Shown: positions 35,059 through 41,588 of the stretch, piece by piece
Position numbering within the stretch: position 1 is the first letter of the stretch
How the letters are laid out: every line of letters starts with the position of its first letter
DNA from: Enterocloster asparagiformis
GTDB taxonomy: Bacteria; Bacillota; Clostridia; Lachnospirales; Lachnospiraceae
Direction: 5' to 3'
DNA length: 64,000 bases
Assembly (NCBI GenBank): GCA_018380885.1
Contig: JAGZSY010000010.1
Span: forward strand, 62,001 to 126,000
The notes under the pieces: model-generated
What the model was told of the DNA's origin: nothing
Database searches by the model: none
The model's input: the letters and a program-made list of their open reading frames with translations, nothing else
Position numbers and translations under genes: made by a program

Positions 35059-38000
35059 ATATACCTGTGCTTTTTCGGTCTCCGCCTTATTTCACCATAC
35101 GGCAAAATGCACTAACCGGCACGTTTTTATTCCCGCCGCCGCAGCCTGCGCTTCATATAGGACCGGCCATGGCTTCACGCTCTATTTTCTCCCTGTGGGA
35201 AATGAACCGGCTGTTCACTGTACCCATACGCCTTCATCATTCACCGTATACCCGTCCGGCGTGACCCGGTTCACGTAGAGCAGCCCCTGTTCTCGGCCCT
35301 GCCTCGGCTCGAAGTAGTACCACGCGCCGTCGATCATATTCCAGCCTGTGTACATATAGCCCTGATCGCCGTCGTGGTAGGGATGCAGGTAATACCGCTT
35401 CCCGTCCTTGTCCGTGTACCAGCCGCTTTCCATGTATCCCTCCCGGTTGAAGTGGTACCATTTCCAGCTGTCCTTCCAGGGCAGGAAATACCAGCCGTCC
35501 GACGGCCATGTGCGGTTCACATACTCGTACCACCAGCCCACGTCGTTTTGAATCCAGCGACCTGTTCTGATCTCGCCGGAGCCGGAGCCGCCGCCATGGC
35601 CGGACGCTGAACCCGCCGTGTCATAGGCCAGACCGTAGGTGGAGAATTTGCTCACATGGAGAATCATATTGTCGCCGGACACCTCGAAATACTCCTCCCC
35701 GTCCGGAAGCTTCTGGACCACGCCCTCGTGTATTCGCAGAACCTGGATATTCACCTTGTCGGAAAGCCCCTCAACCGGTATAACGATCTTGATCAACTGT
35801 GGCAGGCTTGTGAGCCGTGTGCTGCTTCCCGATGTCTGACCTGCCTCTGTCACAGTTTTCAACACCTTCAGGTCCAGTATCATCAGCTCGCTTCCGCTTC
35901 CCGCGCCGGACTCGATCTTCTCCACATCCTCCTTGACCGACTGATCCTCCCGCTCCTTTTGCTTCGCGGTCAGCTTGATTTCCACGCTTCCCCCGGCCGC
36001 CAGTTTGTCTAAATCCTCCTGCGTGATGCCGCTCTCGTCCTCCGTGACCAGGTTCTCCGCCCTGTATAAATCATCCAGATGGTCCGCGGCCACCGGCGGC
36101 GTGCCCGCCTGCACCTCCACAATGGTGCTCTTGTCGCCGTCCGGCATATCGATATCGCTGTTCACCATCTCGTCACCGATCTCAACGATTCTGGTGATCA
36201 CCTGCAGCTTTCCTCCTGGCGGCGTCCGTCTTGCCACCAGGCTGTAGATACCGCAGGGCAGAAATTCAAATTTGTACGCCCCGTCCTCCGCCGTCACCAC
36301 CGGCTTGCCAACAAGGGTTCCGTCCGTGCCTCCCTGGCGCACCTCCACGGTGACCATTGCGATGGGGTGGCCGTTTTCCCTCACAATACCGCTGATACCG
36401 CCTGAAACTTTTACGGTAATCCGGCAGTCGGCGGTCTTGCCTGCGTCCTCCGTCTTAACCGTCACCACCGCGTTCCCTGTTCCCAGCGCAGTCACCACTC
36501 CCTGAGCGCTGACCGACGCCACCGCCGGGTCGCTGCTGCTCCAGGTGACATTCTGATAGGTGGCGTCGGATGGTTCCAACACAGCTGTCAAATCTGCCGA
36601 TCCGCCCACGCCAAGGGTCACCTCGGACGGCTTGATTTTCACGCCCGTGACCGGCTTCACCACGTACTTTTCAACAATGTACGGTCCCGCCTCCGCGCTG
36701 GGCAGCATGGTGCCCTCCCCCTTAACGCGGACGTAATAGGCGCCGGGCGCCAGGTCTGAAGCCTCCCGGACGGCCGCGTCCGTCCAACTGGGCTCCGAAT
36801 CCAGGCGGTACTCCATTTCAGACGTCACATGCTCCAGCTTTCCGTCATTGGAATCCACATAGGTCTCAGATGCTGTCCCGATACCGGATGGGGCCTCTGC
36901 CCGCGTGAGGCCGATGATCTGCGCCTCCGAATCCAGGAAGGTCGTGTGATTGCCGTTTTGGATCACCTGGATTCCCCAGGAGATATCCACTTGGTCCTCC
37001 GCCAGGACCACTTCCGTTCCATCCTCCACCTCAGTCCATGTATCGCCCCCGTCCAGGGAATACCGCATATTGGATTTCAAATTGGAGAGGGTCATGTCCG
37101 AGGCCTCAAATACTGCCTGGGGCGTGTCCATTGGCACCGGCGGGACCGTGCCCACAGCCACCTGGGCTGCCTCTCCCTCCAGATAGTTTTCCGTCTCCTT
37201 CTCCCGTATCCAGTAAGCGCCCGCCTCCAGGTTTTCAACAGCAGTACCCGTAAGGGCTACATCGCTCCACAGCGACCCGTCTGTGGAAATCTCGTAAGCA
37301 ATCCCCTCTGTCAGGCCGGTGATTTTTCCGTCGCCCGCCTCCGGATAAGTCTCGTCCACTCCCTCCGCCTGCGGAGCCGCCGGCCCTTTTGCCTTGCTGA
37401 TATCCGCCCGCGGGCCGGAGGGCGTCTCTTTCAGCTCATAATAATCCTGATCCGCGCCGTTTATCGTGATGTTGGAGACTGTAACAGTCTTATCCTTCCC
37501 AGCGTTGGCGTCTGAAAACGCGCCGTCCGCTGTGAAGCCTACCGTATCCCCGTTTATCCTGCCTTCTGCAATCTGAATTTTCACCACAGCTTCCACGCTG
37601 CCGTCGTACACCTTGTCCTCAGCGGCGGCGGTCACCGTGAGCTGCCGTTTACCCACCGCTTTGGTCGCTTCCGAGGAAATACTCCCACCATAGTTTTCCG
37701 CCGTCACCGCAGCCTGGATCGCCTTGCCCACATCTGCCTTAACCGCCGTATAGGTATTCCCGGCCGCGCCAACAATCTTTATTCCGTCGCGGTACCATTC
37801 ATAGGACAGGGCGCCCGGTTCCACCACCGTAAGCTCCGCGGACGCTTCCAGCACGTCCCCGTAGCGCGGCGCGGCGTTGTTTACAATGACCGTGCCCACC
37901 AAATCCGGCTTCTGGGTGGTAAAGGAGACTGATGTCCGCCCGCTTTTATTTCCCGCCTTGTCCACCACCGCCAGGTACAGGACGTAATTTGTGCGCGGCG

Positions 38001-40899
38001 TCAGTCCCTCCACCTGGAAGGTGATCTCACGATTCGCTGTCTCAACGGCGGTAGTATTGCTGCCGACGATGTCCGTCACCGAGGGGGCGGTCTCAGTGGA
38101 TTTTTTTATCATATAATGATAGGTTCCCGTGTCATTTGAGGTAAACGCAGCTTTAGCGCTTTCCTTCCCGATTTCACTTACCCCCGCCCCGCTGATGGTT
38201 GGGGCGGTTTTGTCCAGCTTCACCGTGACCGCGGCGGTCTCGGCGTAATTGCCCGCCGCATCCTGGGCCTTGAATGTATAGGAATGCGCTCCCTCCTGTG
38301 TTACGGTGTATTTGTAGGGGGAGGCGCCGAAGCTGTTGATCTCCGAGTATGCTCCCTGATCCATTTTGACAAACAGCTTTGTGACGCCCACATTATCTGA
38401 GAATGTCAGCGTGAGCACCACATTCTGGTTCTGCCAGCCGTCCGGCGGGGCGGACACCGAAATCTGGGGCGGGATGTTTTCGACCCACTTGGCGTAGAGC
38501 GTCGTATCGCCGTCCAGGGTGCTGTTCTCAAAATCCCACTCCTGTTTCAACGCCGCATCCTTGTACCAGCCCGCAAAGTTGTAACCAGACCGGGTGGGGT
38601 CGGCAGGCTTCGTCACCTTGCCGTCCACGTCACCGGTGAAATCCCCCACCGGGCTCCCCCCATTGGAGTTGAACTTGACCGTGACGCTGCTGGCCCTGAA
38701 TTTCACGGATACTGTGGTATTGGCTCTGATATCCTTGATCGTATATGCGGTCGGATTCTCCGCGAGATCAATCTTAATCCCGTTTACCATGACCTCGCTG
38801 ACTTCGCATTTTGCCGCCGGAGTGTAGGCGATTGTCAAATCCTCGCCCTGCTGGGCGTAGAATTTTTCGGGATCAAAGGTATCCTTCTCGCCCAAAAGGG
38901 CTGTTTTTTTGTAATAATCCTTATAGACAACGTCACTGTCCGTCTTATTCCCGTATTTCCCGCTGTAGGAAACAGTTCCGTCTCCGATTACTGTGGGGGT
39001 GACGACGCGCGGTTTGAATACAAGAATTCTATTTGTTTTGGCATCCTCAGCCGTCAGAGTAGTATTTGACAAAGCCGTATAATCATACTTGTTATAGATA
39101 TAAAGCTTGCTGGCTCCCCACCTTGAATTATAGGTTTTTGTGTTAATTCCCACTTTACAGGATGACAGCATGGACATACAATTGACGCCGCTTTTAAACT
39201 CAAAATTGCTGATATCCATCGCCGCCAGATTTGAACAGCCGTTAAACATATTATTCATGTCTGTCACATTCTGAATATTAAACTTATTTGTATTAAACGT
39301 CAGGTCCGTAAGGCTGGTACAGGCATTAAACATATATCCCATATTCGTCACGTTCGAGGTTGCAAAGCTACTTAGATCCAGCTCTGTCAGAGATTTGCAT
39401 CCATAAAACATTTGACTCATGTCTGTTACATTCTGCGTATCAAACGTTGTAATATCTAGGGTCGTTAAACTGGCACATTGACGAAACATACTAGACATAC
39501 CCGTTACATTTACGGTACGAAGCGGAGTGAGATCCAGCTCTTTTAAATTACTGCAGAAGGAAAACATAGAGCTCATTTTCTGAACGCCGGGGGCATTGAT
39601 CTGATCAAAGTTCAATGTAGTCAAATTTGTACAACTGTAGAACATAGCTGCCATGTCGGTTACACTGGGAATATCCATACCGCTCAAATTGACGCTGGTC
39701 AGGTTCCCACACCCTTCGAACATACTCTTCATGGTTGTAAGCTTGGGGGCTTGGAGACCGCTTAAATTCATGCTCTCCAAATCGGAACAGGAGCTGAACA
39801 TTTTACTCATATCTGTCACATTGCGTACATTGAGATTTCGTATATCCAGGCTGATCAGACCGCTGCCTTTGAACATTTCGGTCATATTCGTTACGTTTTG
39901 GGTATTGAGACGGCTTATATCAAGAGCGGTCAGGGCAGAACATCCCTTGAACATCCACTTCATATTGACTGCCTTATCCGTATTCATATGGCTGATATCT
40001 AATTCTGTCATCTTGCAGCTGTCAAAAAAACCCAGAAAACTCTCGGTCGCGCTGGTATCAAGACCGCTAATATCCATTTCCGTACAACTTGTAAGCCCGT
40101 AGAATAAATTGGCCGCGTTTTTAGGCGTCTTGACCCCTTGCCTGACAATAACCTTCTTAATATTTTCTTTATACGCATTCCAGCCCTGGCTTACCGCGCT
40201 TGCAAGCTCTTCAAGCTCACCGCTGCTTCCGTTGGACGGCGAGATCGTCATTGTCCCATTCGCATCGATCACCCAGCTGCATGTCCCGCTGGTACCGCTT
40301 GCCATATCCGCCAACGGGCGCATCTCCTCCAACCGCTCCGCCAAATTCCACAGACCCATCAGCTTGTCCACGGACTCTGCATCGATCTGCTCCCGCTCCT
40401 CATCGGCGAGCGCGTCATAGGCCTCCTTTGCCTTTCGGATATCCTTCAACACCTGTTCCATATCTGAAAACCATTTTGCATATTCCGGGTCGCTGTCGCC
40501 GGGGACATCCTCGTAAATGCTGTCCACTGTAGGCAGGGCGTCTATGCGGCGCAGCAAGGCCGCCACTGCGTCTGTCTCCCGGTCCGGCACGGGTACGAGG
40601 CCGTTTTCATCCATCACATACGCGCCAAGGCATTCCGAGAGGTCGGCGTTCTCCTTAAAACACACCGGGCAGTTTTCATCTATGGAATCCTCCGTACAGA
40701 GGACCTGGCAGGTACATTCCGCATCGTCTCCGTCAAGCCCGGTATCCGCGCCGCTATGCGCACCGTTTGATCCGGAGCTGACCGGATATTTACCGGATTC
40801 AGAACTGCCAGATTCATTTTCTGCGGTGCCAGTGGTTCCAGATTCATTTTCTCCGGACCCGGGGAGAATTGTTTCGGTATTTCCGCTCTCTCCGCGGCC

Positions 40900-41091
40900 A
40901 GGTTCTCCGTTTCCTACGTCTCCGGGGCGATCGCTTCCTGTGCTTCCAGGACGTTCACTTTCTGTGCTTCCGGGCTGTTCGCTCCCTGCGTCCCCGGGGT
41001 GTTCACTTCCTGCGTCTCCAAGGTGTTCGCTTCCTGTGCTTCCAGGATGTTCGCTTCCTGCGCCTCCGGGTTCTCCACTTCCTGCGTCTCC
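40900..41091 (-). repeat. Eight 24-bp tandem repeats coding for 8-residue units
   Basis: Units such as GDAGSEHP, GSTGSEHL, GDAGSEQP and GSTGSDRP, eight in a row within the surface-protein gene. Degenerate at DNA level. A flexible, Gly/Ser/Glu-rich spacer between signal peptide and folded domains is the likely function; copy number may vary between strains. Confidence 0.8.
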
Positions 41092-41279
41092 GGCCTGTTC
41101 GGTTCCGCCGCCCACGGAGCCTCCGCCTTCTCCGCTCCCTGCGCCTTCATTTTCTTGTGTTCCGGTATTCCTGTCTCCCGTGCTATCGCTTTCGCCATTG
41201 CCGGTTCCTTCGTTTTTATCAACTCCAGACTGTTGATTCTCAGAATCGCCATATTCGCTGTTCTCTTCTGAGCCCGAAA

Positions 41280-41456
41280 TTATACCCCCCCCCCCACTGC
41301 TCCCGCTTCCGTACTCCCGGCCTCCACACCATTTTTCTGAACTGCTCCGCTCTGGTTCGCCAATACCGTCACGGGAGAGATCCCCAGATTCAGTATCATG
41401 ACCGCGGTTAACAACACTGCCAGCCCTTTACTCTTTATCTCATTCCATCGCAGCAT
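41280..41456 (-). CDS. Signal-peptide fragment of the giant surface protein as read with 11 G
   Basis: As sequenced, translation from the ATG at 41456 (after GGGGGTG) gives a typical Gram-positive signal peptide (MLRWNEIKSKG, hydrophobic LAVLLTAVMILNLGI, cleavage after TVLA), some 20 further residues, then Gly codons from the homopolymer and a stop. It would be a short secreted peptide with no function of its own. A TTG at 41471 and a GTG at 41465 are also in frame. Confidence 0.8.
   Translation of the reverse strand: MLRWNEIKSKGLAVLLTAVMILNLGISPVTVLANQSGAVQKNGVEAGSTEAGAVGGGV
41285..41295 (-). repeat. Homopolymeric G tract (11 G on the coding strand)
   Basis: Eleven consecutive C on the plus strand. 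With 11 the frame runs into TAA two codons after the tract; with 12 (or 9) it continues into the long downstream frame. Such tracts slip during replication and are classic contingency switches. A sequencing error of one base is the main alternative. Confidence 0.85.
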
Positions 41457-41547
41457 CTTCTGCACCCCCAAATATTTATTTTCTGAATCAGTCCTGAATT
41501 TCTCTTAATATTTCGATTTTAGCATACCAGATTTCAATTTCAATTCA

Positions 41548-41588
41548 TTACACTTAGTTGACATTGTCTTACACTTATTTGACATTTG
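41548..41588. repeat. Two tandem 19-base repeats with 21-base period
   Basis: TTACACTTAGTTGACATTG and TTACACTTATTTGACATTTG, two bases apart. Short tandem repeats like these occur at the ends of IS21-family elements, and I recall similar end sequences, but no transposase gene is present. It may be a relic end or a regulatory site upstream of the surface protein. Confidence 0.5.

Follow-up and report, generated by a model that had tools for sequence, protein, structure and literature searches.

The question raised by this locus is whether a simple homopolymeric tract can switch a large surface protein on and off. The window, i.e. the whole stretch of DNA analysed, covers 64,000 nucleotides of Enterocloster asparagiformis (contig JAGZSY010000010.1, positions 62,001 to 126,000). 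A run of 11 C on its + strand (41285-41295), found by a homopolymer scan, is an 11-G tract when read on the minus strand, to which the adhesin-like gene described below belongs. An open reading frame (ORF) of 58 residues (41280-41456, minus strand) starts at the ATG at 41456 with the N-terminus MLRWNEIKSKGLAVLLTAVMILNLGISPVTVLA, and its residues 1-33 (41358-41456) were judged by eye to form a Sec-type signal peptide cleaved after ...TVLA. A short linker follows and then, after codon 53, the 11 G (41295 down to 41285), which places a long mononucleotide run close to the start of the coding sequence. The stop codon (41282-41280) is placed one valine codon beyond the glycines encoded by the tract. 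Past the tract, a frame scan gave the largest frame of the window (35215-41283, minus strand), hereafter called the body: 2,022 codons without a stop, counted from 41283, and then a stop codon at 35217. This frame is already open upstream of the tract (41427) and contains internal GTG starts, the first at 41115. A preliminary description of this DNA had placed within 41280-41300 an 11-G tract separating a signal peptide from a surface protein of about 2000 residues, with the signal-peptide frame ending shortly after the tract; both statements were confirmed, and its count of 1966 residues for the surface-protein frame proved to start at the GTG at 41115. Read alone, the body opens with a Gly/Ser-rich linker and has no signal peptide there. 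With the gene otherwise intact, a change in tract length shifts its reading frame.

Expected numbers of G/C runs of at least 11 in 64 kb were 0.30, 0.017 and 0.027 under Markov models of order 1, 2 and 3 fitted to the window, in which the next longest G/C runs were C7 (two) and G6. By itself, the G11 run is unusual and not impossible by chance; its position at the junction of the signal peptide and the largest frame of the window adds to this unusualness. One G/C run of 9 and none longer was found in 91 other loci of related genomes (1.39 Mb), which had mostly been picked around one conserved gene.

The gene is most probably a simple-sequence contingency locus, switched by slippage at the G tract. 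Slippage during replication would alter the length of the tract and thereby decide whether signal peptide and body share a frame; slippage is the presumed cause of the length changes, which would presumably be reversible within one population. In the recorded phase, translation would end just after the signal peptide, so that no secreted protein would be expected. In the other out-of-frame (OFF) phase, represented by protein P0239 described below, translation would end after 73 residues. In the in-frame (ON) phase, the cell would export the protein, the C-terminal repeats would anchor it to the wall, and there it may be exposed at the surface and take part in adhesion. The phase-variable surface protein proposed in the preliminary description is thus supported by the intact body, the different length between the common flanks in P0239, the in-frame relatives and the presence of both states in sister species.

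The origin of the window was examined with a neighbouring gene encoding a GGGtGRT protein, whose product shares 98% identity with its counterpart in Candidatus Enterocloster excrementipullorum (L001); the genome of the latter, G001, served as the centre of the group. The 1.8 kb around this gene were 95% identical to G009 (one contig, 6.35 Mb) and 87-88% identical to 12 other genomes of the group. Identity was 84% over half the stretch to G019 and 97% over only 133 bases to G020, and no match was found in G021 and G022. By sequence similarity, the window is placed near Enterocloster, Lachnospiraceae.

When the 58-residue ORF was searched against proteins, with length limits that shut out full-length copies, the only protein matched was P0239 (73 residues, one sequence, from a 9,157-base contig). 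It contains the signal peptide of the window, one extra residue ahead of the glycines and a tail corresponding to the third frame of the window. The length difference between the common flanks is therefore not a multiple of three bases. Tract length thus appears to differ between two public records of this gene, the tract of P0239 being deduced from its protein. The body was represented by P0002 (16 member sequences), 98% identical over 1,816 residues and without gaps. P0002 starts at body residue 151, the gene having been called from an internal GTG; indirectly, this is what a gene caller would be expected to do if the signal peptide were out of frame.

More distant relatives carry both parts in one frame. 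In P0003 (60% identical), the signal peptide, homologous to that of the window (E 2e-6), and the body are in a single frame. One of the 397 family genomes (G067) contains a distant homologue (E below 1e-100) whose signal peptide and body are read in one uninterrupted frame of 2,651 codons; 12.5 kb of sequence at this locus contained no G/C run of at least 7. These comparisons indicate that the two ORFs of the window are one gene, and that relatives manage without a tract. No relative of the adhesin body was found in the genome contig and viral contig collections, and no adhesin in 80 loci around the GGGtGRT neighbour, within the available flanks (some of them short). The seven nearest genomes contained no full-length adhesin; six of them gave matches, nearly all to the C-terminal repeats, with one match elsewhere. 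The 17 genus genomes likewise contained no full-length adhesin, and one of them was matched at E 1e-40 over the C-terminal 392 residues.

Long G tracts were then counted across the genus and the family. G runs of at least 11 were present in 17 of 17 genus genomes vs 77 of 395 other family genomes (Fisher p 4e-12); the Fisher tests used here assume independent genomes and tracts, and related genomes are not independent. The family sample as a whole had 79 of 397 genomes with such runs, two of the 397 being members of the group. Several Lachnospiraceae genomes outside the group (G168, G216, G388 and others) also gave many G11 matches. The G019 draft contained 156 runs of at least 11 G, many of them lying no more than about 130 bases from a contig end and likely to be sequencing artefacts, and was for this reason excluded from the length comparison. 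In the remaining 16 genus genomes, 127 runs of at least 11 were found vs 25 of exactly 9 and 37 of exactly 8 (283, 44 and 58 with G019 included), with 1 to 19 tracts of at least 11 G per genome (median 7.5). Chance run lengths would fall off with length and those of the genus do not, so that a chance decay process is disfavoured. A MutS match was found in 17 of 17 genus genomes (16 above cut-off). A general lack of mismatch repair is therefore not the explanation, and the loss of MutS is not supported as the cause of the long tracts. The MutS gene was in two pieces in G016 and G019, and the G020 copy was a contig-end part only.

These counts bear on the possibility that the tract length results from a sequencing or assembly error, in which case this strain would have an invariant gene in frame. 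Errors are common in annotated G-tract lengths (lengths measured in Bifidobacterium breve deviated from the reference, according to the accessible part of PMC9187656), and G019 shows that a genus genome can be full of poly-G artefacts. Such an error is nevertheless unlikely here: P0239, an independent record, is likewise out of frame and in a different phase, and both the genus-wide excess of long tracts and the length differences between species are independent of the window record.

The context of the tracts was assigned by simple ORF rules for 116 tracts of at least 10 G from 11 of the 17 genus genomes, a subset of the tracts of those genomes, with 388 runs of 5-6 G in the same loci as control. 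Gene-splitting was scored for 22 of 116 long tracts vs 24 of 388 control runs (p 1.4e-4), the latter figure giving the noise level of the rules. Long tracts were under-represented within intact frames on the G strand (32 of 116 vs 270 of 388 controls); 18 of 116 were within a frame on the opposite strand. Tracts in no clear gene were over-represented (44 of 116 vs 38 of 388 control runs). A role of the tracts as promoter spacers was rejected, -35-like hexamers being about as frequent before tracts as at random places, and a search for a transcriptional function of the intergenic tracts revealed none. The base after the tract was T in 72 of 115 tracts vs 24% after control runs of 5-6 G, and TAT followed 16 of 115 tracts vs 22 of 505 control runs; the window tract is followed by TATAAT. 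One guess is that T or TAT after the tract provides an early stop in the OFF frames. The G21 run at a contig end in L186 was included in the counts on 116 tracts and excluded from this next-base analysis on 115.

Both phases of one gene were found in sister species. In L204 (G010), a signal peptide, a G11 tract and a protein of 1,842 residues with abhydrolase, GH3 and choline-binding domains are in frame. In L205 (G011), the same signal peptide is followed by G12 and a stop after 38 residues, and the body of 1,800 residues is intact in another frame. The two bodies were 96% identical, with nonsynonymous (dN) and synonymous (dS) divergences of 0.015 and 0.152 (dN/dS 0.098). The out-of-frame body of L205 thus appears to be under purifying selection, which is difficult to reconcile with a gene that died long ago. 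This comparison also bears on whether the window gene is a recent pseudogene whose frame has been lost for good. The two records open to judgement are both out of frame, and P0002 was called from an internal start, as a pseudogene would predict; against this stand the 2,022 codons without a stop, the gap-free 98% identity of P0002 and the selection on the out-of-frame sister body relative to its in-frame copy. A pseudogene is accordingly quite unlikely.

Further tracts were found in other classes of genes. The tract was just past the signal peptide and in frame in L211 (leucine-rich repeat and choline-binding protein, residue 37) and in L158 (solute-binding lipoprotein, residue 22). It splits the gene at residue 36 in L161, another solute-binding lipoprotein, and at residue 197 in L257 (Ig-like, choline-binding). 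A PrpR-type sigma-54 regulator was in frame with G13 in L230 and out of frame with G12 in L195 and G11 in L222; its dN/dS after the tract was 0.04-0.08. L187 contains two tracts (G10 and G16) within about 2.1 kb, one of them in a C5 DNA methyltransferase gene. The methyltransferase is split at the G10 into pieces matching profile positions 3-132 and 252-319, and this tract could switch many genes at once. A run of 26 G was found, out of frame, in the gene of a putative membrane protein (L199). In three genomes, orthologous tracts (L213, G12; L215, G11; L226, G11) are located about 230 codons in, near the end of the gene, and so would alter the C-terminus rather than turn the gene off. A genus-wide Enterocloster poly-G phasome, including the window adhesin, is probable: tracts of at least 11 G would switch wall-bound surface enzymes and adhesins, solute-binding lipoproteins, the sigma-54 regulator, the C5 DNA methyltransferase and glycan-pathway enzymes, in a population bet-hedging much like that of Campylobacter.

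If programmed ribosomal frameshifting, or slippage in the making of the transcript, took place at the tract, some full-length protein would be produced from any DNA length. Homopolymers are able to cause transcript slippage, as reported for Buchnera in the accessible part of PMC2831843. The RNA structure around the tract is not notable (z -0.94), and P0239 points to a length difference between records, which makes this a very unlikely sole explanation; it may still act in addition to length switching. That the signal-peptide ORF is a gene in its own right, encoding a short secreted peptide, and the body another gene with a start of its own, is highly improbable, since P0003 and the G067 homologue hold both parts in one frame and the body alone opens with a linker instead of a signal peptide, the internal GTG starts, one of them used in the P0002 call, being the point in its favour.

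Several points weigh against a contingency switch. Tract lengths in draft genomes are liable to misreading. The comparison of orthologous tracts, which favours the switch in that four of four sets varied in length within the set, was restricted to cases where both tracts had at least 10 G. P0239 comes from one contig of metagenome type and is known as a protein only. Both conspecific-like records open to judgement look OFF, and no in-frame copy of this gene was present among the best 120 matches of either protein search.

The closest measured precedent of the same layout is, by analogy, that of the sortase-dependent pilus genes of B. breve UCC2003, which carry G-tract switches whose lengths vary in culture (accessible part of PMC9187656). 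There too, a G tract of about 11 separates the ORF of the Sec signal from that of the surface-protein body. The B. breve system belongs to another phylum and involves an LPXTG pilin in a sortase cluster, whereas a single BspA/Ig-like protein with a choline-binding-type C-terminus is found here, and the genus tracts also occur in many unrelated genes. In Campylobacter jejuni, G tracts inside genes turn them on and off by length change (available text of PMC6437147). Enterocloster resembles these poly-G contingency loci in having several to many tracts per genome and differs in being a Gram-positive gut member of the Clostridia, known from sequence alone. Poly-G tracts of more than 2 bases were generally under-represented in a survey of 99 genomes (accessible part of PMC2831843).

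The domain content of the body was determined with Pfam (all coordinates on the minus strand). Tandem repeats of 24, 48 and 72 nt encoding the Gly/Ser/Glu-rich linker (40911-41106, repeat analysis) are followed by the best-scoring BspA-type (LRR_5) and DUF285 repeat stretches (39154-39804), a Flg_new (Listeria-Bacteroides repeat) domain (38488-38682), a YDG domain (37423-37650) and a Big_2 Ig-like domain (36427-36654), the last three above cut-off. A choline-binding-type (cell-wall-binding) repeat at 35380-35463 is at cut-off. LRR_5 scored 52.5 bits (cut-off 27.7) and DUF285 176.3 bits (cut-off 25), which identifies the repeats as BspA-type. The Choline_bind score of 27.0 bits equals the cut-off of 27, and no individual stretch passed E 0.001; the body C-terminus is 46% identical over 113 residues to that of L204, whose choline-binding score exceeds the cut-off. 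Of the features listed in the preliminary description, the BspA-type and Ig-like ones were recovered, and the cell-wall-binding repeats are a candidate scoring exactly at cut-off. A carboxypeptidase-regulatory-like stretch was below the Pfam cut-off. By eye, no LPXTG sorting signal was found at the body C-terminus, which ends in wall-binding-type repeats, and no sortase was found among the 10 neighbouring ORFs scanned. The protein resembles BspA-family leucine-rich repeat surface proteins in its LRR_5 and DUF285 repeats and differs in that most listed matches, several of them named BspA-family, cover only part of it; among the listed matches, the C-terminal half was matched over its whole length only by P0002, P0003 and P0004. 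Adhesion is a candidate role suggested by this domain content.

Upstream of the gene, a terminator-like hairpin on the same strand (42022-41989) separates it from the preceding gene. A consensus scan gave a promoter-like site (TTGAAA, 16 nt, TAAAAT; 41516-41543, minus strand), a weak candidate as 2 such sites were found in the region vs 2.2 expected in shuffles. A GGGGG just before the ATG (41465-41469, minus strand), noted by eye, is a possible ribosome-binding site. A pair of direct repeats of 18 nt, 94% identical and spaced 21 nt apart, occupies 41548-41586, immediately ahead of the promoter-like site. No other copy was found in the window or in 263 loci; they are possibly a regulator site or a mobile-element end.

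Among the matches listed in a literature search on Enterocloster, clostridioforme, Clostridium bolteae and Lachnospiraceae, which covered few subscription journals, no report of such a poly-G tract or of such phase variation was found, in agreement with the preliminary description, according to which little has been described of poly-G switching in these bacteria. The mechanism is already known; the group and the breadth look new. The tract survey constitutes a list of loci whose switching is countable in existing deep sequencing. If the proposed phasome exists, genome annotation wrongly splits or omits such genes, and the G-tract switch of bifidobacterial pili would be extended to Lachnospiraceae and across many classes of genes. 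Individual cells within a gut genus would then vary at random in what they display to the host, to phages and to food glycans.
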